Shown in pieces: positions 2,179 through 17,737 of a stretch of DNA of 64,000 nucleotides (position 1 is its first letter; each line of letters starts with the position of its first letter). The stretch comes from Pleurocapsa sp. PCC 7319. GTDB lineage: Bacteria > Cyanobacteriota > Cyanobacteriia > Cyanobacteriales > Xenococcaceae. The DNA lies in assembly GCF_000332195.1 (NCBI RefSeq), contig NZ_KB235922.1, positions 1,423,902 to 1,487,901 of the forward strand, given 5' to 3'. Below the pieces are notes generated by a model. It did no database searches. It had not been told where the DNA came from and saw only the letters and a program-made list of their open reading frames with translations. The position numbers and the translations under genes are program-made.

Positions 2179-3552
2179 TCAAGTAGAAGATGCCTCAACT
2201 ACTTCTAAACCAAGGGATTTTGCTCTTTGCTTGAGATTTTTGATGAGTCTTTCTTGATATTTTTGTTCATAGTAATCAGCTCCACGATCGAGATAAGATT
2301 CTTTTTTTGTCCAGAGAGTATAGAATAGACGAGCAATTTTGTGTGCTGTAGCAGTAATGGCCTTGGGTGCGCCAGCACGGGAGCGAATGCGTCGATAAAA
2401 TGCGCCCAAAGCTGAATGAGAACGACTAACAGCTTGAGCTGCCAATCGAAAAGCTGTTGCAGCTCGATTGTTAACTCGACGAGTCTGAGAACTTTTAACT
2501 TTGCCCCCTGTAATCCGACAACCAGGACATAATCCGAGCCAAGAGCTGAAATGTTTAGCACTCTTAAATTTAGTCGGGTCTAATCCTACTTCACTGAGGA
2601 TGGTTTGCACTGTGACTACACTTAAACCATCAATGCTGGTAAAATCTACTCCCGCAATACGATAGAGATGAGAATGTAAGTCGAACCCTGATTTGATTGA
2701 GCGACGACACTTTTTCTGGCTATTTAGGGGCGGAGTCTCTTTTGTTTGGGAGGGCAATTTACTGAGACATTGTTCGATTTGTTCCTCTAATAATCCGATT
2801 TGTTGTTGATAAAATTGATAACAAGATAATTCTTGATGCAAAATAAAAACCATTTCTGGACGATAATTACCCGTTAGGGCATCTCTAATTTGTTGTGGAC
2901 TACTTTTAATTCTTCGGTGTGCTAATTTGGCTAAGGTTTGTGGATTTCTTTCCCCAGCAATAATGGCCCTCAGAATATTTAATCCTGTCACCCCTGTAAG
3001 ATCGCTAATGACTTTATGCAACTGCAAATTCATCTGTGTTAAAGCTTTTTGCATTCTTTGCACATGAGTCGAACTAGCTTGAATCAAATTTTCTCGTTGT
3101 CTTAAATAGCTTCTCAGTACAGTTATTTCTCCTTCGGGGATAAAGGAAGGTGCAAGTAAGCCATAACTATGCAGTTGTTGTAACCATTGACAATCTTGGA
3201 CATCGCTTTTTCTTCCTGGTACTGTTTTTACATTGTGAGCATTGACTAAACAGACTTGGAAGTTATGCTGACTTAAGATGTTAAATAAAGGTATCCATTC
3301 TACTCCCGTCGATTCGAGGGCAATACTCGTCACACCGCATTCACTTAACCAATTTGCCAGAGCTAGTAAATCTGGTGTACTACACCCAAAACAACGAACA
3401 TTAGATTCTGTTGCTGCTATAGGTACACAAACCCAATGCTCTCTTGAGCCAATATCAATTCCCGCCGAGTGCGGATTGATGACTTTTATTTCTGGCTCCT
3501 GTCTTTTGCTACTTTTTTTCTGGGATTTTTGGCTTCGACCAATTGGCTTCAT
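2179..3552 (-). CDS. IS110-family transposase (DEDD recombinase)
   Basis: A 457-residue transposase. The N-terminal RuvC-like DEDD domain shows GIDIGSREHWV (Asp33), ALESTGVEW (Glu) and KSDVQDCQWL (the last two acidic residues). The C-terminal Transposase_20 region has GLCPGCRITGGKVKSSQTRR, containing the serine typical of the family, then KAITATAHKIARLFY. A basic, Lys/Ser/Gln-rich N-terminal tail precedes the catalytic domain. Reading frame and motifs are intact, so the protein may be active. It is transcribed on the minus strand, with about 270 bp of non-coding element sequence upstream of its start. Confidence 0.93.
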   Translation of the reverse strand: MKPIGRSQKSQKKSSKRQEPEIKVINPHSAGIDIGSREHWVCVPIAATESNVRCFGCSTPDLLALANWLSECGVTSIALESTGVEWIPLFNILSQHNFQVCLVNAHNVKTVPGRKSDVQDCQWLQQLHSYGLLAPSFIPEGEITVLRSYLRQRENLIQASSTHVQRMQKALTQMNLQLHKVISDLTGVTGLNILRAIIAGERNPQTLAKLAHRRIKSSPQQIRDALTGNYRPEMVFILHQELSCYQFYQQQIGLLEEQIEQCLSKLPSQTKETPPLNSQKKCRRSIKSGFDLHSHLYRIAGVDFTSIDGLSVVTVQTILSEVGLDPTKFKSAKHFSSWLGLCPGCRITGGKVKSSQTRRVNNRAATAFRLAAQAVSRSHSALGAFYRRIRSRAGAPKAITATAHKIARLFYTLWTKKESYLDRGADYYEQKYQERLIKNLKQRAKSLGLEVVEASST

Positions 3553-3851: not shown

Positions 3852-4475
3852 TCAACCGGACTTGATATTATAAGCTATCCAAGCGAGATTAATCAAACTG
3901 TTCATAATGGCTGTGGCTACCGTTGAGTTACCTTTGGAGCTATCGATATAAATACTGGGAATAGAAGAATGTCTCAAATCAAGTTTGGCACTTTGCTCAC
4001 CAAACAGAGGGGAAGTTGCAATTATTAAACTGGGTTTAATCATGCTACTCTCATTCAATTCTATGAAAGTTGCTAAAGCAGTTTGATCCTGACCAATAAT
4101 AAAAATACTATCTGGATAATTATGACCAAGAGTCTCTAGCCCACTAGCTGCAATAGTTTTGGTTTTGTCTGATTGACCTCTAATTGTGGTACAGCAATAA
4201 ACAGGATTTAAAAAAGTTTGTTGTAAACGTGGAACTATACTTACTTGAATAGCGGAAACGTCAACCACAATAGATGTCCGAGCTGATAATGCTGCTGCCC
4301 CCTTAATTAGAGCATCTTCAGAAAATCTGAGAAGAGAACCGTATTCAAAGTCTGCGGTTTGATAGATAACTCGGCGAATTATTTCGTATTGGGCTGGAGA
4401 GACTTTTCGGTTACTATCTTCGAGCTGACGATCAATAATTGCCAGAGAAGAAGCCTCTGTAATGTGTAAATCCAT
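3852..4475 (-). CDS. cbiC: precorrin-8X / cobalt-precorrin-8 methylmutase-like protein
   Basis: A 207-residue CobH/CbiC family protein, which moves a methyl group from C-11 to C-12 in the corrin pathway to give hydrogenobyrinic acid or cobyrinate. Visible family features are EIIRRVIYQTADFEYGSLL near the N-terminus (the His common at this site in some members is not evident), then a Val/Asp-rich strand (SIVVDVSAIQ) and the C-terminal SKGNSTVATAIMNSL, matching the GNS/T-containing loop of the family. The length is normal for the family. It stands alone, with its 3' end directly beside the IS110 element. The gene upstream, on the other strand, opens the lanthipeptide locus. Confidence 0.82.
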   Translation of the reverse strand: MDLHITEASSLAIIDRQLEDSNRKVSPAQYEIIRRVIYQTADFEYGSLLRFSEDALIKGAAALSARTSIVVDVSAIQVSIVPRLQQTFLNPVYCCTTIRGQSDKTKTIAASGLETLGHNYPDSIFIIGQDQTALATFIELNESSMIKPSLIIATSPLFGEQSAKLDLRHSSIPSIYIDSSKGNSTVATAIMNSLINLAWIAYNIKSG

Positions 4476-4890
4476 CTGTTTATATTTAATTATCAGTCAA
4501 TACTTTAATCTAAAAAGTATTGACTGAAGGTTAGCTTAATTAAGTAGCAAATAACTATGAAGGAGTAGATAAACTGGTTTATTTGTAATTACTTTTAGTT
4601 TTTTTATACTTATAAGTTGTATTTTAGACTTTTCGTAGATCCTGTGACAGCTTTTAAAGTGATTGCACTAACGCAGCTCCTTAGGATTGCTTTGTGTTTG
4701 ATGTAGTTGCCATCAATTGACAAGAAACCTAATCAAAAACCTAATCAAGTGCTAATGGAGATTAGGTGAATTCTCTTGGAATTGCTCAGTATTGTTAATG
4801 TAGCTACTTGGCAAAAACCCTTGTGTACCTGAGTCAATCTTTTTCTAGATTTCAGAATCTTTGTTATGAATACCGGTTGAATTATATCTT
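4476..4890. other. divergent intergenic region, promoters expected
   Basis: 415 bp between the cbiC start (minus) and the first lanthipeptide-locus gene (plus). It must carry both promoters. It is AT-rich, and I see no repeat, RNA gene or clear operator. A near-duplicated phrase (aacctaatcaa) occurs at about 4727-4748. Confidence 0.4.
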
Positions 4891-6069
4891 ATGTTATTGA
4901 ATTCCCATAACGTTTTCGATTATTTAAGCAATCTTGCAGATCAAGACAGCAAAGCTAATCTCAATTTTTGTAATTCTTTAGATAAAAATCACAGTAAAGT
5001 CGAACCTCTTGCTGCTAAAAACTTTAATTTATTAGTAACTTTTCCTGATAACTGTAAACTGTTAGTTAAACAAGAAAGACATAATCTTGAAGGTAAAGCA
5101 GCTGGTGAATTTAAGAGCGAATATCGAATTCAAAAGTGGTTACGACAGTTTCCTGAACAACAAAGTCTCAGTCCTTTTTTACCAGAATTAATCCACTTTG
5201 ATGCTGAAAATTCGATTATTATTTTCCGCTACTTGGATAATTATCGCGATTTAATGGATTTCTACACCAAAGAGAATAGCTTTCCCAATAAAATTTCCCG
5301 TGCCATCGGCACTCTCTTAGCAACTATTCATGGCGATACCTACGAACAAGAAAAGCATCGACAGTTTTTTGAAATACAAGAACATACTCAGGTTGCAGAT
5401 CAAGTACCTAAATTAATTCGAGGTTTAAAACGAATTACCCCAGAAATATTTGGTTCTGTTCCCGCAGATGGTTTAAAATTCTTTGCTCTCTATCAAAAAT
5501 ACGATAGTTTGGGTCAGGCGATCGCCGAATTAGGAAAATCTTTTACTCCTTCTTGTCTGACTCACAATGACTTGAAGCTTAATAATATTCTCTTGCATAC
5601 AGATTGGCTGCAAACTAACGACAGTATTATCAGACTGATTGATTGGGAACGTAACAGTTGGGGAGATCCTGCTTTTGATTTGGGAACTCTGGTTGGTAGC
5701 TATATCCAAATTTGGCTGGTTAGTTTAATTATCAGTAAGTCTTTGAGTATTGAAGAATCTCTGAGTTTAGCAGTAACTCCGATAGAAAAGCTTCAGCCTT
5801 CGATTGCTGCTTTGACTAAAGCCTATCTAGAGACTTTTCCAGAAATCCTAGAACATCGACCCGACTTCTTAATAAGAGTAGTGCAATTTGCTGGTTTTGC
5901 TTTGATTCAAAGGATTCAAGCGATGATTCAATATCAAAAATCCTTTGATAATACAGGAATAGCCATGCTTCAGGTAGCTAAAGCTTTATTATGTCGTCCA
6001 GAGCGATCGATGCCCACAGTATTTGGCAAGGATATTGTCGAAATAGTACAAATTTGCACTGCTACTTAA
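4891..6069 (+). CDS. APH-fold phosphotransferase, putative LanK-like kinase of the lanthipeptide locus
   Basis: A 392-residue protein with the aminoglycoside-phosphotransferase / choline-kinase fold. Its catalytic loop LTHNDLKLNN (H225, N226, D227, N232) and metal-binding LIDWERNSWGDPAFDLG (D251) look intact. The HopA1-family gene starts 23 bp after its stop, and lanM follows, so it most likely belongs to the peptide-modifying machinery rather than to antibiotic resistance. In class V lanthipeptide loci (lexapeptide, cacaoidin), a kinase-like protein of this kind phosphorylates Ser/Thr of the precursor in partnership with a HopA1-domain lyase. Assigning that role here rests on gene context plus fold. 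The substrate could also be a small molecule. Confidence 0.8.
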   Translation: MLLNSHNVFDYLSNLADQDSKANLNFCNSLDKNHSKVEPLAAKNFNLLVTFPDNCKLLVKQERHNLEGKAAGEFKSEYRIQKWLRQFPEQQSLSPFLPELIHFDAENSIIIFRYLDNYRDLMDFYTKENSFPNKISRAIGTLLATIHGDTYEQEKHRQFFEIQEHTQVADQVPKLIRGLKRITPEIFGSVPADGLKFFALYQKYDSLGQAIAELGKSFTPSCLTHNDLKLNNILLHTDWLQTNDSIIRLIDWERNSWGDPAFDLGTLVGSYIQIWLVSLIISKSLSIEESLSLAVTPIEKLQPSIAALTKAYLETFPEILEHRPDFLIRVVQFAGFALIQRIQAMIQYQKSFDNTGIAMLQVAKALLCRPERSMPTVFGKDIVEIVQICTAT

Positions 6070-6092
6070 GAAATTAATTTAAAAACAAAATT

Positions 6093-7199
6093 ATGACACG
6101 ATTACTCGATTCTCCTCCATCTCAGATCGACAATTGCTCTAATCGACTACAAACTGTTCTGGAAGATATTGTCAACCAGGTTGAAATTAGAGAGGATTTT
6201 TCAGTTCGACATCCCGACTACAAACCCCTAGAACTACCTGAAGAAGCTGTAACGCGGTTTCAGAAAATGCCAGAACAGATGCAGCAAAAATATCTTAGTC
6301 TGCAACTGAGGAGTTTCCTTTATGGTATCTACTATAGTGGCTGGATGCGAGAAGCCTTAGCGTTAGACACAGAAGAGAATAATTTACCTTTAGATTTAGA
6401 AAATAATACTCTCTTGGGAGTAGATTTAGAATTTTATAATCGCATACATCAAAGTAATAATGGTCAAGGTTATTTCGCTCCCGGTTGGTCGATTCTTAAG
6501 GAAGAGGAAGATGGTAGCTTAGTAGTAAAAAAGGGCGGTTTAAAACTACATATAGAGCGTGATAAACATCTACAACCTACCGCACAAAATGCTGTAACTG
6601 GTGATTCGGTAGCGATCAAGATGCCCAAAAATTGTGTGCAGAATGGCTATTATATTTCTGTTGGCAATGCTAGAGCAAATCTGCATCAAGATGCTAATGA
6701 GGATGTTTTAGTACGGATTTACTTTAACTTGACCCCTGAAGGTGCAGTAGGAGTAATGCATGGTCTTACCCACCAACTAAATGAACAAAATATCCCTTTT
6801 GATTTTAAGGTTTTATACAATCCCCAAGATTATCGACGCCATGACTCAGGAGTTTTATATTTTAATAAGAGTAATTATGAGCTAGTTCATCAGATATTAC
6901 AGAAGGTATATCAAGAGAATAAGTCTCAGTTTAAAGCTGAAGTTCCTTTATTTACTTTGCAGCTAGCACCGGGGTTAGCATTAGCAGAAGAACCAGATCA
7001 AAAGTTTGCCCAAAAAGAAAGTTTTGGCATGAATCGCTGTCAAATTATAGCTAATGGTTTACTAGAGGCTTGGTATCAAGATAAAAACTTAGTAAACGAT
7101 AAAATGCAATACATCTTTGAGCAATTTTCAATTTTAGGTATTGACTTAAACCATACTTACATTAATGCCAACGGAAAGGATATTTATCAAATCTTTTAA
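6093..7199 (+). CDS. HopA1-family protein, putative LanY-like phospho-Ser/Thr lyase
   Basis: A 368-residue protein recognised as the type III effector HopA1 family, found in cyanobacterial RiPP loci. Typical segments are LRSFLYGIYYSGW (about residue 71), SNNGQGYFAPGW, VRIYFNLTPEGAVGVM and FDFKVLYNPQDYRRHDSGVLY, then the C-terminal FGMNRCQIIANGLLEAW. In class V lanthipeptides the HopA1-domain protein (LxmY, Cao9) is thought to eliminate phosphate from phosphorylated Ser/Thr. It lies 23 bp behind the APH-type kinase and 186 bp ahead of lanM, with a hairpin in the latter gap. Family assignment is good; the enzymatic role is inferred. Confidence 0.8.
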   Translation: MTRLLDSPPSQIDNCSNRLQTVLEDIVNQVEIREDFSVRHPDYKPLELPEEAVTRFQKMPEQMQQKYLSLQLRSFLYGIYYSGWMREALALDTEENNLPLDLENNTLLGVDLEFYNRIHQSNNGQGYFAPGWSILKEEEDGSLVVKKGGLKLHIERDKHLQPTAQNAVTGDSVAIKMPKNCVQNGYYISVGNARANLHQDANEDVLVRIYFNLTPEGAVGVMHGLTHQLNEQNIPFDFKVLYNPQDYRRHDSGVLYFNKSNYELVHQILQKVYQENKSQFKAEVPLFTLQLAPGLALAEEPDQKFAQKESFGMNRCQIIANGLLEAWYQDKNLVNDKMQYIFEQFSILGIDLNHTYINANGKDIYQIF

Positions 7200-7220
7200 T
7201 AATAACAAAATCTTTAAAAG

Positions 7221-7258
7221 AATATCAGCATTTTTATCAATCAAATGCTGATATTTAT
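7221..7258 (+). terminator. hairpin between the HopA1-like gene and lanM
   Basis: The 13-bp inverted repeat AATATCAGCATTT / AAATGCTGATATT encloses a 9-nt loop and is followed by an AT-rich tail. It could end or attenuate the kinase-HopA1 transcript, so lanM may have its own promoter in the remaining 125 bp. Confidence 0.55.
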
Positions 7259-7385
7259 TATTGATAGATCGCCAAACAATATTAATAGTTTAATTACATA
7301 AATTGTCTTAGTTGTTTTTGATAGATTGAAAAATATCAATTGTCAAAATAAAAGTAATTCACGTTCTTAAATAATACTTTCTATT

Positions 7386-10300
7386 ATGATGAAATTAGCG
7401 ACAGATCCCTTGGTACAATTAGCGAATAATGCCTCATCTTTATCAGAGCGCATTAATAACAATCTTAGTTCTCAAAATAATATCCTTACCAAGTCCGATC
7501 AATATTTAGTAGAACAACAAATTATCAACTGGTGTAAATTAGTTGGTGGAAAAGAAAAACTAGAAAAGTCCCTGTATTGGTATGGATTAGATTTAGATTC
7601 TGTTTGTCCTCTCCTAAAAACATCTTATTTAACAAAATCTTCCTTGCCATCTTGGATCAAAACTTTTCAAGCATTAGTTCAAAGTAGTAAAAATCTATCA
7701 ATAGAGCTACTAGAAAAAAAAGATTTACCAATTGATTCGGAACATCCTTTCCCTTTTGAGGATTTTTATTTCCCATTCATTCTAGTTGCTAGAAACAAGC
7801 TAAATACTCAATTAGCCTCAAATTACATCTTACAAGTATTTAGTCACAAAGCTTATCAAGCATTGGAAAGAAGCTTATTGAAACAATTAGTTGATTTAGG
7901 CACAGAAACTTTGCTATTAGAATTTAACAAAGTAAAGGAAACATATTACTCTCAAGAGCAAGAAAATCTTCAGACAGATGAAAGTCGAGCTTGTTATACT
8001 TCTTTTATTCAAAATATTCAACAAGATGGAGGAGTAAAATTTTTTGATAATTATCCTGTCTTAGCTCGTTTAATAACTACAACTATTGATTTCTGGGTAG
8101 AATCTACCGCAGAATTCATTCAAAGACTGCAAAATGATTTATTGGCAATTAAAAATACTTTTTCTGATAACAAAAGTTTAGGAAAAGTTGAATTCATTGA
8201 TACTTCTCTATCTAATCCTCATCATGGTAAACGGTTCGTTTTAGCTCTGACTTTTTCTTCTGGGGTAAAAGTTGTCTACAAGCCTAAAGATTTAAGTTTA
8301 TCTGTTGCCTTCAATCAATTATTCGATTGGTGCAATCATCAAAAAATATCTTTACCTTTCAAATTAACTAAGATTTTAGAGTGTCAAGGATATGGTTGGG
8401 TTGAATATATTTTTCAAGAGCCTTGTTTGGCACAAGTAGAAGTCAACAACTTTTATAAAAGAGCAGGAATGTTGTTATCACTGCTCTATGTATTAGGAGC
8501 AAAAAACTGTCATGCAGAAAATGTTATCGCTAATGGACAATATCCTGTTCTTATTGACGCTGATATTCTAATGCAACCTTCCACTAAAAACAGCGATAAA
8601 CCAGGTGAATGGTTTAGAGATTCAGTTGTTGGGATTGGATTTTTGCCGGCTTGGGATGGTGATATTGATATAAAAAGTTCTCAAGACTCCAGTGTTTTAG
8701 GCAATATACATCCTCATCAAGTAAATTCTTCGAGAGAGTGGAAATTTATTAACACAGATAAAATGCACTTAGCTCCAAAGAGTAAAATTATTCCTGCTGG
8801 AACTAATGTAGTAATTCTAGATAGTAAAACTATTGCTCCTTATGACTATCAAGAAGATATTGTTACTGGTTTTGAGGAGATATACAGGCTGTTAATCGAA
8901 CACAAAGACACTCTGATAGAAACAGAAACGCCTCTAGCAAAATTTAAGTTTTCTAAATCTCGATTTATTGTCCGTCCAACATTAACTTACGCCATCACTG
9001 CTAAGAAAAGCATTAGTCCTCAATATTTAAATAATGGCTTTGACTATAGCTTGCTGATTGATATCCTTAACTTCAATTATTCAACTACAAAAAACAAGTC
9101 AGATACTAAGGAAATTTTAACTGCGGAAGCAAAATCTTTACAACGGCGAGATATACCTTATTTTTCAGTAGCTTGTGACAGCAATGCTCTAGAAGTTGAA
9201 CCAAATAAACTTATCCAGCAGTTTTTCAAAATATCTAGCTATCAACAGTTAATTTCTCGGTTAAAGAATCTTGATCGCCAAGACTTAGCCTTGCAACTAA
9301 AAATGATTCGGTTGAGTCTTTATGCCAAGATGGCGCATCGAAACAAAACAAATACTACCGCTACCCAACAAGATGACTATACCCAATATGCCCCACTGAG
9401 CTCAGAACAATTAATCCAAGAGGCTCTAAAAATAGGCGATAGTCTGGTGAATAGTGTTATTCGTCATGACGATGATTGTAACTGGCTTTCCTTAGAATAT
9501 ATGTTTAAGGCAAACCGGTATCAACTTCAGACTCTAGATAATTCTTTATTTACTGGGCGTATTGGAGTTTGCTTGTTCTTGGCAGCTTTAGCAAAAGTAA
9601 CAGGTCAAAGCGAATATAAAGATGTCGCCTTGGCAGCTTTATCTCCTTTACTGCGCTCTATTACAAAAGTAGAAGCTCAGAAAAGATTTGTTGAGCCAGG
9701 ATTAGGCATTATCGGCATAGGCGGTATTATTTATAGCTTAGTTAAAATTAGCCATTTTCTGGCAGAACCAGAACTTCTCAGGAATGCTCAAGAATTAGTT
9801 AAGTCGATCACCCCAGAAGTTATTGCCACAGATCAAAAGCTAGATCTTGTATTTGGCATAACAGGAGCAATCCCAGGTTTATTATCTCTATATCAAGAGA
9901 CTGAAGATAGAACTGTTTTAGATAGAGCTATTTTATGCGGAAATCATTTATTATCTAAGCAAACCGGTACTTTTCCCAGAGCTTGGAAAACTTCAGAAAA
10001 AGCAGGAAGTAAACCGATGACTGGTTTATCTCATGGTGCATCGGGTATTGCTTTATCATTACTACGCCTATATGCTGCCACATCAAATTCAACTTACTTA
10101 GAAGCCGCTAAGGAAGGGGTTGAATATGAACGTAATGTCTTCAATAAGTCATTAAAAAGATGGCCCGATTTCCGTTTATCAGCACAAGCAAATCAACTTG
10201 ATATTATGTATGCTTGGTGTAATGGAAGTCCTGGTATTGGATTAGCTCGCTTAGGTAGTCTCCCGATTATCAAAACGAAAGAAACCTATGCCGATATAGA

Positions 10301-10625
10301 GATAGCTCTAGACATGACTCAGAAATATGAACTATTTAATGGCACTAGTAGTATAGATTATTTATGCTGTGGAAGTTTGGGAAGAACCGAATTATTTGTT
10401 TTGGCAGCTCAAAGACTTAATAACCAAGATTGGCTGACATTCGCCCGAAAAAATGCAGCATTCGTAGTTGCCAGAGCCACAAAAAATAAAAACTATGGTC
10501 TTTTACCTCATTTAGCTGATTCTGTTTTAAGTCCTAGTTTTTTTAAAGGAAGTGCAGGATTAGGCTATCAGTTTTTACGTCTAGCAAATCCAAAGTCCTT
10601 ACCTTCAGTACTTATTTGGGAATAA
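7386..10625 (+). CDS. lanM: class II lanthipeptide synthetase LanM, three-Cys zinc type
   Basis: A 1079-residue bifunctional synthetase. The N-terminal dehydratase (DUF4135, about residues 130-640) has the kinase-like Lys in VVYKPKD and the metal-site LIDAD (D391). The elimination motif RFIVRPT is also present. The LanC-like cyclase (about 730-1079) has GLSHGASG and zinc ligands C945 (WCNG), C994 and C995 (CCGSLG). Three Cys ligands mark the ProcM-like group, known for relaxed substrate choice. Odd point: the catalytic-loop DxHxxN of LanM enzymes reads N374-C-H376-A-E-N379, losing the Asp that acts as base. A separate kinase and a HopA1-like gene lie upstream, and four precursor genes lie downstream. 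No ribosome-binding site is obvious before the ATG. Confidence 0.95.
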   Translation: MMKLATDPLVQLANNASSLSERINNNLSSQNNILTKSDQYLVEQQIINWCKLVGGKEKLEKSLYWYGLDLDSVCPLLKTSYLTKSSLPSWIKTFQALVQSSKNLSIELLEKKDLPIDSEHPFPFEDFYFPFILVARNKLNTQLASNYILQVFSHKAYQALERSLLKQLVDLGTETLLLEFNKVKETYYSQEQENLQTDESRACYTSFIQNIQQDGGVKFFDNYPVLARLITTTIDFWVESTAEFIQRLQNDLLAIKNTFSDNKSLGKVEFIDTSLSNPHHGKRFVLALTFSSGVKVVYKPKDLSLSVAFNQLFDWCNHQKISLPFKLTKILECQGYGWVEYIFQEPCLAQVEVNNFYKRAGMLLSLLYVLGAKNCHAENVIANGQYPVLIDADILMQPSTKNSDKPGEWFRDSVVGIGFLPAWDGDIDIKSSQDSSVLGNIHPHQVNSSREWKFINTDKMHLAPKSKIIPAGTNVVILDSKTIAPYDYQEDIVTGFEEIYRLLIEHKDTLIETETPLAKFKFSKSRFIVRPTLTYAITAKKSISPQYLNNGFDYSLLIDILNFNYSTTKNKSDTKEILTAEAKSLQRRDIPYFSVACDSNALEVEPNKLIQQFFKISSYQQLISRLKNLDRQDLALQLKMIRLSLYAKMAHRNKTNTTATQQDDYTQYAPLSSEQLIQEALKIGDSLVNSVIRHDDDCNWLSLEYMFKANRYQLQTLDNSLFTGRIGVCLFLAALAKVTGQSEYKDVALAALSPLLRSITKVEAQKRFVEPGLGIIGIGGIIYSLVKISHFLAEPELLRNAQELVKSITPEVIATDQKLDLVFGITGAIPGLLSLYQETEDRTVLDRAILCGNHLLSKQTGTFPRAWKTSEKAGSKPMTGLSHGASGIALSLLRLYAATSNSTYLEAAKEGVEYERNVFNKSLKRWPDFRLSAQANQLDIMYAWCNGSPGIGLARLGSLPIIKTKETYADIEIALDMTQKYELFNGTSSIDYLCCGSLGRTELFVLAAQRLNNQDWLTFARKNAAFVVARATKNKNYGLLPHLADSVLSPSFFKGSAGLGYQFLRLANPKSLPSVLIWE

Positions 10626-10691
10626 AAACAGAGCATTAATCATAATCTGAATCAAAGACATATTAGTATTAGTTACTAATTTAATTTAAAA

Positions 10692-10727
10692 AAAACAGCT
10701 TACTAAAACTAGCAGGCTGTTTTTTTT
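10692..10727 (+). terminator. rho-independent terminator after lanM
   Basis: Stem AAAACAGC / GCTGTTTT plus inner pairs, followed by a run of T. It separates lanM from lanA1, so the precursor genes are probably transcribed independently. A closely related copy lies at 13743-13778. Confidence 0.8.
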
Positions 10728-11008
10728 ACTTGTTTTGGATTAAACATGAGAAGACAACTCAATTATTTATATTCTTTAATCACTAAAATAAGCACCATTT
10801 TAAACAAAATTAAATCACTATTTAATTCAAACCGAGTTAATGGGTAAAATTATAATTTTAATGAATAAAAAAATTGCATATTTTGGATTCAAAACTGTTA
10901 TTTATTTTGTGGTCTTTTTGGCTTTAAGTTGTTTATTATTAGATCAGAAATTAAAAATAACTAATTTCTCTTAATCAACAAACTCAAAATTAATTGGAGA
11001 AAAAAACA
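10728..11008 (+). promoter_or_regulatory. lanA1 leader region with conserved stem-loop
   Basis: 281 bp of AT-rich non-coding DNA ahead of lanA1. Its last ~150 bp recur nearly unchanged before lanA3 and lanA4. They contain an 8-bp inverted repeat AGAAATTA / TAATTTCT (10946-10953 and 10962-10969), followed 27 bp later by the ribosome-binding site GGAGA. It probably holds the lanA1 promoter and an operator or 5' UTR structure. Confidence 0.55.
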
Positions 11009-11200
11009 ATGGCTAATATCAATATCGAAAACATCTCTGACTTGGCTTTAAATGGTAATGATTTGTTTGAAGATTCAGAAAGCTTTATTACTGAGCTTGA
11101 TGATAATGAACAAGCTATCATGGGTGGTTGCGCTGTTACTAACATTGGTGATTGCGGTAATACTGTAGGTGATTGTAGAGTGACTATCAATATCACATAA
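11009..11200 (+). CDS. lanA1: lanthipeptide precursor LanA1
   Basis: A 63-residue precursor. The ATG at 11009 is chosen because GGAGA lies at 10996-11000 with ideal spacing; an upstream in-frame TTG (10994) overlaps that site. The leader of about 40 residues is acidic and ends ...NEQAIMGG, a double-glycine cleavage site. The 23-residue core breaks into three modules each starting C-x-x-T: CAVTNIGD, CGNTVGD and CRVTINIT. The Cys and Thr residues are the expected ring formers. It is almost identical to lanA4. No transporter-protease gene that would cut at GG is seen nearby. Confidence 0.9.
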   Translation: MANINIENISDLALNGNDLFEDSESFITELDDNEQAIMGGCAVTNIGDCGNTVGDCRVTINIT

Positions 11201-11235
11201 GGTCGGAGTACTCTTTACTGTGAGAAGTTAGCTAG

Positions 11236-11370
11236 TTGACTTCTCACTGTCCTAAAGAGTCGGTGATTCTGGTCTTAAGTTTTTAGTTTTTAGTTTTTAG
11301 TTCAAATTGACTACTAATTACTAAAAGAAGTATTCCTAGAAGGAAGAGGCTGTAAACCCAGAACGATGCC
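11236..11370. repeat. dispersed non-autonomous element, copy 1 (family IV)
   Basis: This segment is absent from the otherwise matching sequence downstream of lanA4 (14369-14460), so it is an insertion. An inverted copy lies at 22340-22540. Shared landmarks are CCTAAAGAGTCGGTGATTCT at one end, TTTTTAG repeats and CAAATTGACTACTAATTACT in the middle, and AAACCCAGAACGATG at the other end. No coding capacity. Confidence 0.75.
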
Positions 11371-11436
11371 AACTCGGAGCTCTGAGTGGCTCCTAGAGAT
11401 GTAAAAAAGCTAGCAAGTATTTGGCTTTTGAGAGTA

Positions 11437-11464
11437 ATTGGTACAAAGATTTTTTTGTACCAAT
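11437..11464 (+). terminator. hairpin downstream of lanA1
   Basis: Inverted repeat ATTGGTACAAA / TTTGTACCAAT followed by a T-rich tail. The same hairpin is conserved after lanA4 (14473-14500). Likely terminator of the precursor transcript. Confidence 0.6.
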
Positions 11465-11527
11465 CTCTTTATTTAATATAAATAAAATAATTTTGTGATC
11501 CTTTAGTTTTACTCAAAACCAATTATT

Positions 11528-12535
11528 ATGATTATAAAAATGTATAAGCAAATAAACAATATATTTCAAAGCTATTTACTTGGACGTTTCAAACCATTAC
11601 CTAAAAGCGAAAATATTGATATTGCCTTGAATAAGCGAAAAGAAGTGACTCTGATGGCTCATTTGCCCTTGGAAGATCTTATCTGTATCAAGAAGATTAG
11701 TAATGCTAGTCAAGCTGGATTAGCAGCATTATTTAAAGGTAAACTAATTGATGCACAACAAGCATATACAGCCGCAAATAAAATAATCAAATCTAGTCAA
11801 TTTAACGATGAAAGTTTTCTAGTTGTCAAAGACCTTTTTAATGCTTCTCAAGGTTATTTTGATTATCGTCAAGGGAACTATGAAAATGCTAGAGTAAATT
11901 TACATATAGCTCTAGAAGCATGTATGGCTTTAGTCAACCAATATGGTTATGATTTCTTACGAGGAAGACCAATTCATCTCGCTAATAACTTAGTCAAAGT
12001 TGAAGCCTGCTCTGGGAATTATGAAAAAGCGATCAAAATTGCTTGCTACCTAATCAATAATATGAAAGGTAACTATAATAGCTCACTTGATAGAGATATC
12101 AATTTACTTGAACCTGTTCAACATTTATTATTAAAAGATGAACGCTTTGAAAGCTTCTTATTTACTCAAGTTTTTGAAGAAATTGCCAAACTACTTGCTA
12201 GTTGCGATGATAATAAATCAAATAAATTAGTTGATTTAGCTACTGATCTTATTGGAGAATGTAGCCCATCATCAAATAAACAATTTGATCGAGAATATAC
12301 TTGGTTTAAGAATAAACAAACTTTACAAAAAGGTAAAACTGTTGAATTTCTTGAAAAATCTAGTAAGTTTTTAGAAGAGGGAAGAGGTTATGCTAAGCAT
12401 TTATGGCATGCTACAGTTTTAGACCTACTAAAAATCTGCAACAACATAGACTCTGAAATATCACAAAGGCTACAACAACAGATCAGAGAAGATTTTTCTA
12501 ATTATAAGTATTTACCTAGTGTTTTAAAAGCGTAA
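11528..12535 (+). CDS. helical-repeat (TPR-like) protein of unknown function in the lanthipeptide locus
   Basis: A 335-residue, helix-rich protein without signal peptide or membrane segments. Stretches such as AGLAALFKGKLIDAQQAYTAANKI, SQGYFDYRQGNYENARVNL and SGNYEKAIKIACYLI have tetratricopeptide-like spacing of Gly/Ala/Tyr, in roughly three or four units between residues 55 and 190. I do not recognise a named family. An internal ATG at 11540 is an alternative start. It lies between lanA1 and lanA2 on the same strand, so it may bind precursors or regulate the locus, but nothing in the sequence proves this. Confidence 0.65.
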   Translation: MIIKMYKQINNIFQSYLLGRFKPLPKSENIDIALNKRKEVTLMAHLPLEDLICIKKISNASQAGLAALFKGKLIDAQQAYTAANKIIKSSQFNDESFLVVKDLFNASQGYFDYRQGNYENARVNLHIALEACMALVNQYGYDFLRGRPIHLANNLVKVEACSGNYEKAIKIACYLINNMKGNYNSSLDRDINLLEPVQHLLLKDERFESFLFTQVFEEIAKLLASCDDNKSNKLVDLATDLIGECSPSSNKQFDREYTWFKNKQTLQKGKTVEFLEKSSKFLEEGRGYAKHLWHATVLDLLKICNNIDSEISQRLQQQIREDFSNYKYLPSVLKA

Positions 12536-12700
12536 AATTCAAATAAATTATGTCTTTTGAAATATTTACTAACTATGGCGTCGCCATGGCAAACCACAGC
12601 CTATTTAAAGGTTTTTCTCTCATAGTGAGATCGCCATAACTAAAAATAAATAATTTCTATCAAGCAATAAACACAAAATTAATAAAAAAAAATAACAACA

Positions 12701-12940
12701 ATGCCTAATATCAACATCGACAATATCTCTGACTTAGACCTAAATGGTAATGATTTATTTGAAGATTCAGAAAGCTTTATTACTGAGCTAAGTGATGATA
12801 ACGAACAAGCTATTATTGGTGGTTGCCTGTTTACCGGTGGTTGTTTGTTTACTGATGGCTGCGGTTTAACTCGAATTGGTGGTTGCGGTAACACTATAGG
12901 ACAATGCGGTAACACTATAGTTATAAATATAAGTATCTAA
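12701..12940 (+). CDS. lanA2: lanthipeptide precursor LanA2
   Basis: A 79-residue precursor. Its leader is nearly the same as that of LanA1/3/4 and ends ...NEQAIIGG. The core is the longest of the set, with five C-x-x-T modules: CLFTGG, CLFTDG, CGLTRIGG, CGNTIGQ and CGNTIVINISI. Unlike its paralogues, it has no Shine-Dalgarno sequence (AATAACAACA precedes the ATG) and lacks their conserved 5' stem-loop region, so it may be expressed differently. The upstream 165 bp carry no repeat I recognise. Confidence 0.88.
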   Translation: MPNINIDNISDLDLNGNDLFEDSESFITELSDDNEQAIIGGCLFTGGCLFTDGCGLTRIGGCGNTIGQCGNTIVINISI

Positions 12941-13020
12941 TGGCTTCATAAATTTCGATAACTTTAGCTCACGATGTTTTTAACTTGGCTTTTTCCTATT
13001 GCTTTTGCATCAGAGGTTTG

Positions 13021-13130
13021 GTTGAGCCCTAAATCTTTACCTTCAGTGCTTATTTGGCAATAGAAACTGAGCATTAATCATAATCTAAATCAAAGACATA
13101 TTAGTATTAGTTACTAATTTAATTTATATC
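13021..13130 (+). pseudogene. duplicated 3' end of lanM with its downstream flank
   Basis: Sequence at about 13027-13064 encodes the last residues of LanM (PKSLPSVLIW followed by Gln and stop, against Glu-stop in lanM). It continues into the same downstream flank (GAGCATTAATCATAATCT...) for about 60 more bases. This is a remnant of a segmental duplication covering the lanM end plus the lanA leader region, and explains the origin of lanA3. Confidence 0.8.
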
Positions 13131-13332
13131 ACGTGAAAAGCTCAGTAATTAAAATAAAATAAATTGGTCAACTTACGACTTTAATAAATACAAAAAAATG
13201 TATATTTTAGATTCAATACTATTGCTTATTTTGTGATTTTTTTGATTCTAAGTTGTTTATTATTAGATCAGAAATTAAAAATAACTAATTTCTCTTAATT
13301 AACAAACTCAAAATTAATTGGAGAAAAAAATA
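13131..13332 (+). promoter_or_regulatory. lanA3 leader region with conserved stem-loop
   Basis: Copy of the lanA1 leader region. The 8-bp inverted repeat AGAAATTA / TAATTTCT is at 13270-13277 and 13286-13293, and the GGAGA ribosome-binding site begins at 13320. Likely promoter/5' UTR of lanA3. Confidence 0.55.
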
Positions 13333-13545
13333 ATGACTAATATTAATATCGACAATATCTCTGACTTAGACCTAAATGGTAATGATTTGTTTGAAGATTC
13401 AGAAAGCTTTATTACTGAGCTAAGTGATGGTAATGAACAAGCTATTATTGGTGGTTGTGTTCTTACTCCGATTGGTGATTGCGTTCATACTCAAGGATGC
13501 GGTAATACTATGATTTGCCCAGCAATTTCATGGGCTTTGAGTTGA
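13333..13545 (+). CDS. lanA3: lanthipeptide precursor LanA3 with transposon-derived C-terminus
   Basis: A 70-residue precursor; the ATG at 13333 lies behind GGAGA. The leader matches LanA2 and ends ...NEQAIIGG. The core has three C-x-x-T modules (CVLTPIGD, CVHTQG, CGNTMI), then CPAISWALS and stop. From about 13512 the DNA is the antisense of an IS630 transposase fragment, so the last nine or ten residues are encoded by the remnant and replace the ancestral tail. The result is a fourth Cys in a new context and a bulky Trp-containing end, unlike its paralogues. Whether it is still processed cannot be told from sequence. Confidence 0.85.
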   Translation: MTNINIDNISDLDLNGNDLFEDSESFITELSDGNEQAIIGGCVLTPIGDCVHTQGCGNTMICPAISWALS

Positions 13546-13660
13546 TGCCATTGTGTTTCAGCCCCATTCATATCAGAACAATAAGGTGGCAAGAAAAATA
13601 ATAGTAATTCTTGTATTGCGCTAGAGTCTCTTCTTATTGTCGATTAAGTTCGATGCGTAG
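13512..13660 (-). pseudogene. IS630-family transposase fragment
   Basis: On the minus strand, 13512-13610 reads as an unbroken piece of a cyanobacterial IS630 DDE transposase near its C-terminus: FFLPPYCSDMN then GAETQWHQLKAHEIAGQI, including the catalytic Glu region. Weaker similarity may extend to about 13660. The rest of the element is missing. It overlaps the 3' end of lanA3 in antisense. Confidence 0.8.
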
Positions 13661-13742
13661 TGGTGCAAGCATTTTTTCTTCATTATTTCACTTAATCATC
13701 TTATATTTAATTACAACCATCTACTTACTAATTTAATTTATA

Positions 13743-13778
13743 AAAAACAGCCTACTGGTTTTAGTAAGCTGTTTTTTT
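13743..13778 (+). terminator. rho-independent terminator, copy of the lanM terminator
   Basis: AAAACAGC / GCTGTTTT stem with T-run, paralogous to 10692-10727. The sequence after it (GAGAAGACAACTCAATTATT) also matches the lanM downstream region, showing that it came with the duplication. Confidence 0.75.
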
Positions 13779-14176
13779 TACTTATTTCGGATTAAATCCG
13801 AGAAGACAACTCAATTATTTATATTCTTTTATTACTAAAACAAACACCGTTTTAAATAAAATTAAAATTGCTATTTATAGACGTTTTCAATGGGATAGAC
13901 CCTACTAAAATTAATTATTGCGTACCCATTAACCATCAGCCATCAGTTTTTTTGAATTTTTAGTGTGATCTAATCACGTGAAAAGCGCAGCAATTAAAAT
14001 AAAATTAATTGGTCAATTTACGACTTTGATAAATACAAAAAATTGCATATTTTGCGTTCAAAACTATTATTTATTTTGTGGTCTTTTTGAGCTTAAATTG
14101 TTTACTATTAGATCAGAAATTAAAAATAACTAATTTCTCTTAATCAACAAATTCAAAATTAATTGGAGAAAAAACA
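13779..14176 (+). promoter_or_regulatory. lanA4 leader region with conserved stem-loop
   Basis: A copy of the lanA1 leader region interrupted by unrelated AT-rich sequence at about 13880-13980. The inverted repeat AGAAATTA / TAATTTCT is at 14115-14122 and 14131-14138. The GGAGA ribosome-binding site is at about 14164-14168. Confidence 0.55.
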
Positions 14177-14368
14177 ATGGCTAATATCAATATTGAAAAC
14201 ATCTCTGACTTAGCTCTAAATGGTAATGATTTGTTTGAAGATTCAGAAAGCTTTATTACTGAGCTTGATGATAATGAACAAGCTATTATGGGTGGTTGCG
14301 CTGTTACTAACATTGGTAATTGCGATAATACTGTAGGTGATTGTAGGGTGACTATCAATATCACATAA
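14177..14368 (+). CDS. lanA4: lanthipeptide precursor LanA4
   Basis: A 63-residue precursor, nearly identical to LanA1. The leader ends ...NEQAIMGG, and the core has three C-x-x-T modules (CAVTNIGN, CDNTVGD, CRVTINIT) that differ from LanA1 at two positions (both Asp/Asn or Gly/Asp changes). The start is supported by GGAGA eight bases upstream. The downstream flank is collinear with that of lanA1 but lacks the 11236-11370 insertion. It is a recent duplicate, and both copies remain open. Confidence 0.9.
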   Translation: MANINIENISDLALNGNDLFEDSESFITELDDNEQAIMGGCAVTNIGNCDNTVGDCRVTINIT

Positions 14369-14472
14369 GTTCGGAGTACTCGTTAACGCGAGAAGCTAGC
14401 TACGTAACTCGGAGCTCCAAGTTGGATCCTTAAGATGTAAAAAAGCTAGCAAGTATTTGGCTTTTGAGAGTG

Positions 14473-14500
14473 ATTGGTACAAAAAAGTCTTTGTACCAAT
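14473..14500 (+). terminator. hairpin downstream of lanA4
   Basis: Inverted repeat ATTGGTACAAA / TTTGTACCAAT, followed by CTTCTTATTT. Paralogous to 11437-11464. Confidence 0.6.
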
Positions 14501-14562
14501 CTTCTTATTTAGTATAAACAAAATAACTTGTTTTAACCGATATGCCCCTTAAAGGTAGTCTC

Positions 14563-15249
14563 ATGAAAAGTAAAACCATACTGTCTCTTATAGGATTCCC
14601 TCTAGCTTCATTAGTTATATTTTTTGTACTAACAAATAGTAGACCAATTATTAATTTGAGTGCAGCTAACATGGAACAAAAAGTTATGTTAAACAAAGAG
14701 ACTAGACAAGTTGAAAACTTTGATTCAATTAACATTCAGGGAGACTATAGTATCGAAATTGTTTGCCAAGAAGAGCCAAGTATTGAACTCCAAAGCTTTA
14801 AAGATATTTTGACATTAGTTCAAACAGAAGTAAGGGATAATACTTTATTTATTTTTCCCAAAAGTAAAATTCCTAATGATGAAGATATTAAAATTAAAAT
14901 CTCAGCTATTAACTTAAACAACATTTATGCTTTAGGCGCCAATAATATCCGAGTAAATAACCTCAAAAATGAGCAGACAAATATTAATTTAAATGGTAGT
15001 TCTAACTCTAAGATATTTGGAAAAACCGGAGAACTAAATGTAACGATATCCGGTCAAGCAAACTTTGATGCCCAGAAATTTGCATCACAGAAAGTTAAGC
15101 TTGATTTGTCTGGGTCTGTAATGATACAAGTTCAAGCAAATGAGAAACTCGATATAGCGATGAATGGTGCGGGAGCTATTTATTATCATGGCAATCCTAA
15201 GATAGCAACTAGGAATATAAAGGGACCAGTCATTATCAAACAAAAATGA
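14563..15249 (+). CDS. head-GIN (DUF2807) exported protein
   Basis: A 228-residue protein with an N-terminal hydrophobic helix (about residues 8-24), probably a signal peptide or anchor. It is followed by a DUF2807 domain starting ETRQVENFDSINIQGDYSIEI and continuing in beta-strand repeats of Asn/Gly/Ser (LNGSSNSKIFGK, LNVTISGQANFDA, IAMNGAGAIYYHG). Such domains form right-handed beta structures on exported proteins of unknown function. I prefer the ATG at 14563 because AAAGG lies 8 bases upstream and the signal starts there; an in-frame ATG at 14542 would add seven residues. It is the last gene of the lanthipeptide region, but a functional link is not shown. Confidence 0.72.
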   Translation: MKSKTILSLIGFPLASLVIFFVLTNSRPIINLSAANMEQKVMLNKETRQVENFDSINIQGDYSIEIVCQEEPSIELQSFKDILTLVQTEVRDNTLFIFPKSKIPNDEDIKIKISAINLNNIYALGANNIRVNNLKNEQTNINLNGSSNSKIFGKTGELNVTISGQANFDAQKFASQKVKLDLSGSVMIQVQANEKLDIAMNGAGAIYYHGNPKIATRNIKGPVIIKQK

Positions 15250-15323
15250 ATGCCATTAACAACTAGCTATTAAAATCAAATAATCTCATTATAATTTGAT
15301 ATTTAGAGCAATTTCTGCATTTC

Positions 15324-15354
15324 AGTCCAAGAAAAATCTTGGGCTATTTTTTTT
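15324..15354 (+). terminator. rho-independent terminator
   Basis: Stem AGTCCAAGA / TCTTGGGCT with a 4-nt loop and a following T-run. It ends the DUF2807 gene and the lanthipeptide region. Confidence 0.8.
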
Positions 15355-15396
15355 ATTTCAAAGCCTATTGACAAAAGGATTGTAGAACATTCATCA

Positions 15397-15488
15397 TATA
15401 GCATTATGCTTTAAGCTTAGGACAGAAGATATTGGTTCAAAGGGAACAGGGAATAGAAAATGTCCTAATATTTTCTCGTGGTGCTATA
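15397..15488. repeat. MITE-like element family I, copy a
   Basis: 92 bp running from TATAGC...TTAGGACA to TGTCCTAAT...GCTATA. The ends are imperfect inverted repeats of about 27 bp. The interior contains GGGAACAGGGAATAG instead of the usual GTAAC repeats. Related copies are at 17938, 25196, 29894 and 30376, with a half copy at 54174. Confidence 0.65.
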
Positions 15489-15586
15489 TAATCATTATTC
15501 AAAGATGCTCGTTTGCTTTTTGGTCGCAGCGATCGCACGCACTCGCCGTACCAGCACAGGCGATCGCTTTTTAGCGAATTGTTGGA

Positions 15587-17737
15587 TTACACAAAGAAGG
15601 CGAGAATTTTAGGTAGAACTTTGGCACAAGCTTTAGCTAATTTTGAAGCTGGTTCTACTCCTTTGGCTATTACTTCTAAAAAACCTACTGCCCGTTCAGC
15701 TTTTTTCTGCATAGTTTCAGCTTGCGGATTTTGTCCTGCTTCCGCCAGTATTTGTAACTGTTCTAGAACTTGCTTTTGATCATCTTCAGACAATTGAGGA
15801 TCGTCAATTGCTGCTTGAATTTCAGTCAATAAATCTTTGATACCTGGTTCCTCTGGATTAGATGAAGATGGTAGCTGGTTAATGGCATTAGCAACAGTAC
15901 CGTTAATATCCCCTAAACTGAATGCTCCTGCACCACTAGCATTAACAGTTCCACCTGAAATATTTAGGTTTCGGCTTTGGTCAGTTTTCTGGTCTTCAAC
16001 ATAATCCCCTTTAATATTTTCAATATTGCGATCGCCTGCCATATTATTATCTCCTTGTTGATGATAGTTTGAAGCATAGAAGCCAGGGCGTTTTAGTGCC
16101 GTATCGACCATATTTTCTAAACTGGCAATACGGTCGTCCTTTTCTTCCATTAGTTGGGCAACTTCTACTGCTGCTAAAGCTTTAAGTTCATTGTAAGTCT
16201 CAAAATAATCAGCACTCAGTTGGGACTTATCAGCTTTTGCAGATGTTTTAGCTCTAAGCAGCAATTTATCTGCACCCTTTCTTTCCATTGCTACTATTTC
16301 CAGTTCCGCATCGGGATTGTTCTCCGCCAATTCCTTAAAAGATATTGCGATCGCCCTTGGGTCTACTCCTTGATTGTGATAGAGATCGAGGGTATCAAAA
16401 ACAGGCTGGATAAAATCGCCAAAGTCACCGTCTGCAAACACTTCTAACCGATTGTCAGGTTTGCGATATGGATCGGGGTCTTTGTCAGTCGGCAGACGCA
16501 TAAAGACATATTCGCATCTCACCCCATTCAATACAGTATTTGAGGTGATGCCCCAATCTTCAATAAAAGCTCCTGTGAGAGTAGCTCCTGTAAAGTCCGT
16601 TTTATCTAACTGCGTCTGTACCAGTTTGGCTCTGGATAAATCTGCATCCTGTAGATTAGCCTCACTTAAATTGGCATCAATAAAGCTAGCATCTGTCAGC
16701 TCTGCTCCTTGAAGATTAATACCCTGTAACTTTTGACCATCAAAATTCTTGTCAATTCCTTTACCAATCAGCCATTGCCTTACTTGAGTGCTTTTTAGAT
16801 AAGTATCTCCAGGGCGCACCCGATCTAGCATTTTCGCCCCATACCAACGAACACGAGTTAGGGTAGCTTTTCTGAGATCTGTGCTTTTTAATCTAGCTCC
16901 TGTGAAATTAGCATCAGTTAAATCGGCACCTCGAAAACTCGTACCCCGCGTAGCAGCAAAAGCAATGGCAAAAGAACGCACCCAAGCATCTCTGGCATCA
17001 CCTTTCAAAGCACGCCAACCAATAAATACTCCTGCTCCTGCTACTGCTACTGCTCCTGCTCCTGCTCCTGCTACTGCTACTGCTCCTGCTCCTGCTCCTG
17101 CTCCTGCTACTGCTCCTGCTCCTGCTCCTGCTCCTGCTACTGCTCCTGCTACTGCTACTGCTACTGCTCCTGCTCCTGCTCCTGCTCCTGCTACTGCTAC
17201 TGCTACTGCTCCTGCTACTGCTCCTGCTCCTGCTCCTGCTACTGCTACTGCTACTGCTACTGCTACTGCTACTGCTACTGCTCCTGCGAATGCGAATGCG
17301 AATGCTCCTGCTACTGCTACTGCTACTGCTACTGCTACTGCTACTGCTACTGCTCTTATTCCTTGGGGTATAATTGCAATCAGAAATATAACTAGTACTA
17401 GTAAACTAACACAACCTGCAATTTGATTAGTTAAGTCGGAGTCAAAAATTAGTGAAATAAAAGCACCAGCAAATATTGAGAACAATCCTGATATGACTGC
17501 TAGTAGCCAGGAAAGAATAGTTAAGAGTGCTGCCCAACGTTTTTGTAGTCCACACTTCGCACCAGTAAATTTAGCCCCTCTGAGATTTGCACCTGTAAAG
17601 TTAGTACTGCGAAGATCCGCCTCACTAAAATCTGCTCCTGAAAGGTCTTTTCTCTTAAAAGATTGTCCTTTTAGATTTAGACGCTGAAAATTCCTTTCCC
17701 CTGCTGCATATTTCTTCAAAAGTTCATTGGCTTTCAT
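15587..17737 (-). CDS. pentapeptide-repeat membrane protein with Ala-Val/Ala-Gly microsatellite domain
   Basis: A 716-residue protein. Pentapeptide repeats (A[DN]LxX type) occur at about residues 10-60, 265-300 and 335-395. Two clear TM segments (about 68-90 and 100-125) lead into about 108 residues that alternate Ala with Val or Gly (with one Ala-Phe run), encoded by a hexamer microsatellite. After the last pentapeptides there is a mixed soluble region, a short Gln/Asn-rich segment (about 560-580), a Gly/Ala/Asn segment (NISGGTVNASGAGAFSLGDI) and a helical C-terminus. The latter parts resemble cyanobacterial proteins with effector-like tails. Role unknown. The start MKANELLKKYAAGER is a common beginning for such proteins. 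Confidence 0.8.
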   Translation of the reverse strand: MKANELLKKYAAGERNFQRLNLKGQSFKRKDLSGADFSEADLRSTNFTGANLRGAKFTGAKCGLQKRWAALLTILSWLLAVISGLFSIFAGAFISLIFDSDLTNQIAGCVSLLVLVIFLIAIIPQGIRAVAVAVAVAVAVAVAGAFAFAFAGAVAVAVAVAVAVAVAGAGAGAVAGAVAVAVAGAGAGAGAVAVAVAGAVAGAGAGAGAVAGAGAGAGAVAVAGAGAGAVAVAGAGVFIGWRALKGDARDAWVRSFAIAFAATRGTSFRGADLTDANFTGARLKSTDLRKATLTRVRWYGAKMLDRVRPGDTYLKSTQVRQWLIGKGIDKNFDGQKLQGINLQGAELTDASFIDANLSEANLQDADLSRAKLVQTQLDKTDFTGATLTGAFIEDWGITSNTVLNGVRCEYVFMRLPTDKDPDPYRKPDNRLEVFADGDFGDFIQPVFDTLDLYHNQGVDPRAIAISFKELAENNPDAELEIVAMERKGADKLLLRAKTSAKADKSQLSADYFETYNELKALAAVEVAQLMEEKDDRIASLENMVDTALKRPGFYASNYHQQGDNNMAGDRNIENIKGDYVEDQKTDQSRNLNISGGTVNASGAGAFSLGDINGTVANAINQLPSSSNPEEPGIKDLLTEIQAAIDDPQLSEDDQKQVLEQLQILAEAGQNPQAETMQKKAERAVGFLEVIAKGVEPASKLAKACAKVLPKILAFFV
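17028..17355. repeat. coding hexamer microsatellite (GCTACT / GCTCCT)
   Basis: About 328 bp of perfect trinucleotide-phase repeat in which every second codon is GCA (Ala, minus strand) and the alternate codon is GTA (Val) or GGA (Gly), with one short GCATTC (Ala-Phe) run at about 17287-17305. It lies inside the pentapeptide-repeat gene, and any change of a 6-bp unit keeps the frame. Confidence 0.9.

Follow-up and report, generated by a model that had tools for sequence, protein, structure and literature searches.

A probable three-protein lanthipeptide synthetase in cyanobacteria: a LanK/LanY pair beside a LanM with a degenerate dehydratase domain

Lanthipeptides are divided into classes according to the synthetases that make them. 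Class V (cacaoidin CaoK/CaoY, lexapeptide LxmK/LxmY) uses a separate APH-fold kinase and HopA1-family lyase; in the cacaoidin pathway CaoK phosphorylates and CaoY eliminates the phosphate, and the class is described without synthases of classes I-IV (PMC9486802). Cyanobacterial HopA1/phosphotransferase pairs with double-glycine precursors have been grouped as Family 1A (570 peptides, 183 clusters), whose clusters typically contain several precursors that combine conserved double-glycine leaders with variable cores, and 20% of HopA1 proteins have a LanC-like cyclase nearby or fused to them (PMC8153245); the type-B precursors found beside LanK/LanY are all cyanobacterial (PMC9486802), and class V systems in which LanC is a separate cyclase are also known (Pei et al. 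2022, via the review PMC12328550). In these sources, cyanobacterial LanK/LanY clusters with such precursors and LanC cyclases in class V are already published.

For class II, the dehydratase residues can be compared with those of CylM: the D347A substrate stayed unmodified even with long incubation; Asp252 belongs to a set of four residues that matter for eliminating phosphate, and in D252A phosphorylated intermediates pile up and dehydration is partial; H349A and H254A retain slow activity (PMC4550811). In the ProcM clade, a zinc site with three Cys ligands is linked to rings in which Cys precedes Dha/Dhb (preprint PMC13060382). A LanM homologue without dehydratase residues, CA_C0082 of Clostridium acetobutylicum, has been described; unlike the protein analysed here, its zinc site is also absent, it is shorter and it acts with Agr quorum sensing (PMC10301443). 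The literature search, which covered listings and passages of open papers, found no report of a LanM with a degenerate dehydratase working together with LanK/LanY.

The window (the whole 64,000-nucleotide stretch of Pleurocapsa sp. PCC 7319 DNA that was analysed) carries three consecutive ORFs on the + strand: a predicted LanK-like APH-fold Ser/Thr peptide kinase (4891..6069, 392 aa), a predicted LanY-like HopA1-family phospho-Ser/Thr lyase (6093..7199, 368 aa) and a LanM (7386..10625, 1079 aa), followed by four double-glycine precursor genes. The gap between kinase and lyase is 23 bp (6070-6092) and that between lyase and LanM is 186 bp, in agreement with the original prediction, which had placed the first two genes 23 bp apart and upstream of LanM; its term "fused" holds for the genomic context, but the genes are separate. 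The genome contains one HopA1 gene and two LanMs. The prediction had also called for a search of other cyanobacterial genomes, in which the kinase/HopA1/LanM group was found again; its recurrence indicates that this is not a chance neighbourhood. G+C content is 0.32-0.34 over the cluster (4001-16000) versus 0.37-0.46 in the remaining window (4-kb steps), and this low G+C is possibly a sign of transfer. An IS110-family transposase is encoded upstream of the cluster (2179-3552, minus strand).

The kinase matches the APH family (PF01636, E 1.8e-11) and, over residues 36-376 of 392, the NCBIfam LxmK model NF038156 (E 1.6e-32). It retains the residues of the HxD...N, DxE and Lys motifs; the APH-fold kinase with intact catalytic residues that had been predicted is recovered here. 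The lyase matches PF17914 (E 1.2e-58, 198 bits) and PDB chain 9dk1_B (named only 'Lyase', E 5.8e-9), and retains the residues matched, by spacing rather than by alignment, to CaoY Arg187, Lys219, Arg229 and Tyr236 (positions from PMC9486802). Judged by these residues, both enzymes look active. The locus resembles class V in its separate kinase and lyase with the lyase residues kept, and to that extent the earlier label "class V-type" stands; it does not extend to the kinase score, 112.9 bits, far under the LxmK equivalog cut-off of 315, and the presence of a LanM also sets the cluster apart from class V as described in PMC9486802.

The LanM scores about 911 bits against TIGR03897 (E 8.8e-274; cut-off 304), with a DUF4135 domain at residues 223-595 and a LANC_like domain at residues 717-1076. 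In the alignment to CylM (5dzt_A), codon 277 (AAT, 8214..8216, + strand) encodes Asn at the position of Asp252 (phosphate elimination), and codon 374 (AAC, 8505..8507, + strand) encodes Asn at the position of Asp347 (phosphorylation); the other seven of the nine dehydratase residues compared are retained, as are the three Cys zinc ligands of the cyclase together with its active-site His (domain at 9534..10622, + strand). The protein thus matches class II in its family model, zinc ligands and His, and departs from it at the two catalytic Asp residues. It is like the ProcM clade in LanM architecture, three-Cys zinc set and cores with Cys N-terminal to Thr, but its dehydratase residues are lost and the precursor leaders belong to a family tied to LanK/LanY. 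The second LanM of the same genome (L002/L113; L numbers designate loci) retains all nine dehydratase residues. With so mild a replacement as Asp-to-Asn, and with the seven remaining positions unchanged, residual dehydratase activity is possible. On balance, the sequence comparisons make it probable that the three proteins form one synthetase, in which dehydration falls to LanK/LanY and cyclisation to LanM.

The distribution of such LanMs was analysed in 129 LanM ORFs longer than 500 aa. They come from the window, from named loci and from an order-wide draw of 388 genomes, itself taken from a larger order, in which 117 genomes carry LanM and 93 of these (all but 24) entered the residue comparison. 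Ten named loci were added, two of them being left out as duplicates (L118 and L120, of L098 and L108); L114-L123 were retrieved with degenerate LanMs as the query and are a biased sample, and the order sample was counted separately. Defining the degenerate group by a change at Asp252 and/or Asp347, we found 16 members among the 129, and no such change in the 111 other LanMs covering both positions (two of the 113 others do not reach them). Asp252 is replaced by N, S or E in 14 members (retained in L122 and L206) and Asp347 by N, S or K in 11 (retained in L096, L097, L114, L117 and L121). Residues outside the definition were also altered: His349 became D, G, Q or Y in 13/16 members vs 5/111 others, Asn352 changed in 3/16 vs 0/112, Arg506 in 2/16 vs 0/112, and a Glu two positions past Asp364 is Asp in all 16; Thr512, changed in 8/16 and also in 10/112 others, mostly to Ser, is poor evidence.

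These residue states bear on the alternative that LanM keeps an altered dehydratase activity (for example phosphorylation only, or elimination only) and shares dehydration with LanK/LanY. The alternative draws on the retention of Lys274 (16/16), Asp364 (15/16) and Arg506 (14/16), and on the slow activity of CylM H349A and H254A and the partial dehydration by D252A (PMC4550811); however, every member has two to six of the nine dehydratase residues changed, in sets that vary among members, and we consider shared dehydration unlikely. The reading in which LanM acts as the cyclase of the LanK/LanY pair agrees with the state of the cyclase ligands, retained in all 15 readable degenerate LanMs and in the second piece of the L119 LanM, which fell below the length threshold (ORFs of 500 aa or less were excluded) and is not among the 129.

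The 16 degenerate LanMs form a single branch with local support 100 among 123 LanMs (FastTree, no bootstrap; rows under 1000 aa among the other LanMs left out), within the region of the tree that three-Cys LanMs occupy. Near-invariant columns are broken in the 16 at 9/18 positions of the dehydratase domain, 4/26 of the cyclase, 0/2 of the N-terminal part and 0/2 of the linker, a count that is partly circular because the 79 comparison LanMs were chosen for both Asp residues and intact cyclase ligands; without the two Asp columns, 7/16 dehydratase columns are broken, in 25 cells, 16 of which belong to the one Glu-to-Asp column. Carriers include Nostoc linckia, Nostoc carneum, Calothrix membranacea, a Symploca MAG, two Moorena, a Nostocaceae MAG, a Nostocales isolate and a Hyellaceae MAG, the last being closest to the window (75% identity). 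No relative of the degenerate LanMs was found in viral contigs.

A LanK or LanY match lies within 6 kb of 12/16 degenerate LanMs vs 1/113 others; in the order sample alone the figures are 5/8 vs 1/113 (p 1.7e-6, kinship ignored). The four without such a neighbour are L095, whose contig carries a LanK/LanY pair (L094) about 14 kb further upstream; L116, in whose assembly a pair (L115) sits on a different contig; and L108 and L206, each with a HopA1 gene elsewhere in the genome. The sole intact LanM near a pair is that of L099, 3.3 kb from LanY. In the order sample, HopA1 occurs in 7/7 degenerate-LanM genomes vs 49/86 other examined LanM genomes (p 0.039, a weak test that is not relied on); among the 388 genomes, 146 contain HopA1, 117 contain LanM and 65 contain both, vs 44 expected. 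Where a degenerate LanM has LanK/LanY next to it, the residues of the main pair are intact in 12/12 LanKs and in the 11/11 readable LanYs (the L119 LanY piece stops short of the scored residues and is outside the 11); over all loci tested the full set is present in 19/22 kinase rows and 19/21 lyase rows, and the incomplete rows come from the L119 lyase and the L107 kinase, which are partial pieces, from the second LanK of L123 and from L105, whose second pair is degenerate. The proposal that dehydration and cyclisation are split between enzymes is supported by these comparisons: the LanM dehydratase residues are lost, the cyclase ligands are retained, and the loss tracks LanK/LanY adjacency.

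The association is not obligatory on the LanK/LanY side. LanY without LanM is a common context: among 28 HopA1 loci inspected, none had a LanM match and 27 had both LanK and LanY. The original prediction had named kinase and HopA1 genes standing without lanM or lanA as contrary to it; lanM was absent from 28/28 of these loci, but leader-bearing precursors were present in 22/28. Their occurrence without LanM means that the pair does not need LanM. The LanYs that neighbour a LanM do not group into a single clade (7 label changes on the tree, of which at least 5 are forced), so partners have been gained, lost or swapped; inheritance of LanK, LanY and LanM as a single unit was rejected, since the LanMs form one clade and the adjacent LanYs do not.

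The four precursors of the window, all on the + strand, are precursor 1 (11009..11200, 63 aa, core CAVTNIGDCGNTVGDCRVTINIT); precursor 2 (12701..12940, 79 aa), whose core contains five CxxT units; precursor 3 (13333..13545, 70 aa), with three CxxT units and one extra Cys; and precursor 4 (14177..14368, 63 aa), a near copy of precursor 1. All four have a single leader type with a double-glycine site, and the locus thereby shows the Family 1A/type-B combination of cyanobacterial HopA1, phosphotransferase and multiple double-glycine precursors; it differs from that group in its cyclase, since the passages on the group mention LanC-like cyclases and no LanM whose dehydratase residues are lost. Other ORFs in this region are a 335-aa ORF between precursors 1 and 2 (11528-12535, weak TPR matches), a DUF2807 protein directly downstream of precursor 4 (14542-15249) and a pentapeptide-repeat protein with a long Ala/Val/Gly simple-repeat stretch (15587-17737, minus strand).

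A leader model trained on 23 precursors from LanK/LanY/degenerate-LanM loci found relatives in 13/14 degenerate-LanM loci (the 12 with an adjacent pair plus L095 and L116; L098 gave no match), and also in L108, L206 and the locus of the intact LanM near a pair. Relatives were present in 22/28 LanK/LanY-only loci vs 1/103 loci of other LanMs, from which we infer that the leader goes with LanK/LanY. This distribution is relevant to the possibility of two independent pathways side by side, LanK/LanY acting on one precursor set and a full class II LanM on another. LanK/LanY pairs do frequently stand without LanM, and the intact L099 LanM is found near a LanY, as such a possibility would have it, but all four window precursors carry the one leader family tied to LanK/LanY and the dehydratase residues of the LanM are lost, so that independent pathways are quite improbable.

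For a LanM acting as cyclase on peptides dehydrated by LanK/LanY, the Cys content of the cores is informative. At least two Cys are present in 38/43 cores at degenerate-LanM loci vs 6/47 at LanK/LanY-only loci, where 24/47 are Cys-free; counting distinct cores, the figures are 36/41 vs 6/43. The locus means differ (p 1.6e-6; 15 vs 22 loci, L108 and L206 included, kinship ignored), and 3/22 LanK/LanY-only loci also average at least two Cys per core. Cys-rich cores, being frequent at degenerate-LanM loci and few at LanK/LanY-only loci, go with LanM. In the window cores, 14/15 Cys have Thr at +3 vs 2.3 expected (reached in 0/2000 shuffles; the four cores are paralogous), which makes small Cys-first methyllanthionine rings likely. 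In the 35 other distinct cores with at least two Cys, Ser/Thr is found at +4 for 54/115 Cys (17.1 expected) and at +3 for 35/115 (18.1 expected), with a weak enrichment at -3 (26/115, 18.1 expected). The spacing from Cys to Ser/Thr fits predicted rings in which Cys comes first.

In the proposed mechanism, LanK would phosphorylate Ser/Thr in the precursor cores, LanY would eliminate the phosphate to give Dha/Dhb, and LanM, no longer dehydrating, would add Cys to Dhb through its zinc-dependent LanC-like domain. The products would have three to five small methyllanthionine rings with Cys N-terminal to its partner. LanK/LanY dehydration and a separate cyclase would be shared with class V systems using LanC, but the cyclase in the window is a full-length LanM that still bears a degenerate dehydratase domain, perhaps serving leader or partner binding. 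The double-glycine leader would be cut by an exporter not adjacent in the window genome: no gene of the C39/ABC exporter family was grouped from the first 24 kb of the window, and the Pleurocapsa sp. PCC 7319 genome has 11 C39 matches elsewhere. That neighbour family is found near 9/16 degenerate LanMs, its two scanned members combining a C39 peptidase with an ABC exporter; a rotamase-type family is present in 9 degenerate-LanM loci, and HlyD-type neighbours at the two scanned.

The dN/dS of close degenerate LanM pairs was 0.20-0.41 for the dehydratase domain and 0.22-0.55 for the cyclase, and that of intact LanM pairs 0.11-0.23 and 0.07-0.23 (the pairs overlap, and L119 is represented by its first ORF alone). 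Relaxed selection specific to the dehydratase domain was not seen, dN/dS being raised in both LanM domains. By these values, purifying selection still acts on the degenerate dehydratase domain, and its being kept with dN/dS below 1 hints at a role beyond catalysis. A LanM that is a functionless, decaying remnant, leaving LanK/LanY alone to yield a linear dehydrated peptide, would agree with dN/dS above that of intact LanMs and with the nearest relative L119, in which LanM is split over two ORFs (record coverage near 4.5); but dN/dS well below 1, the cyclase ligands conserved in every readable member and in the second L119 piece, and the Cys-rich cores with ordered Cys-Thr spacing make a remnant very unlikely.

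A fuller form of the three-protein reading, which we advance tentatively as a possibility somewhat short of an even chance, is that LanM was reduced once to a cyclase, its kinase-fold domain now being a leader-reading or docking scaffold for LanK/LanY, with strings of Cys-first methyllanthionine rings as products of a distinct, conserved architecture. A natural system with its dehydratase from one class and its cyclase from another would show that the lanthipeptide classes are modular; the LanM would be a ready-made cyclase for peptides dehydrated by another enzyme, and its degenerate domain would offer a natural test of the roles of the LanM dehydratase domain besides catalysis.

Other LanMs of the sample have damaged cyclase ligands. 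A clade of 13 (L167, L172, L188, L190, L195, L200, L202, L203, L204, L207, L208, L209 and L218) retains Asp252 and Asp347 and has broken cyclase zinc ligands (mostly S, C, N); the neighbours include, in 13/13 loci, a family in which the single member scanned is a C39 ABC exporter, and families with a TfuA-like and a YcaO scanned member in 7 loci each. This clade may be the mirror case, with dehydration and without the usual zinc cyclase. A second group with broken cyclase ligands comprises ten LanMs (L185, L187, L192, L193, L201, L211, L213, L214, L215 and L216), six of which have A, C, W, Q as ligands. A small-ORF family is present in 10/10 of these loci (the scanned member has a Nif11 domain) and a 414-aa ORF family in 8 (scanned member without a Pfam match). 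L109 and L110 encode two and three LanM ORFs, respectively, all with damaged cyclase ligands and with dehydratase residues intact where covered.
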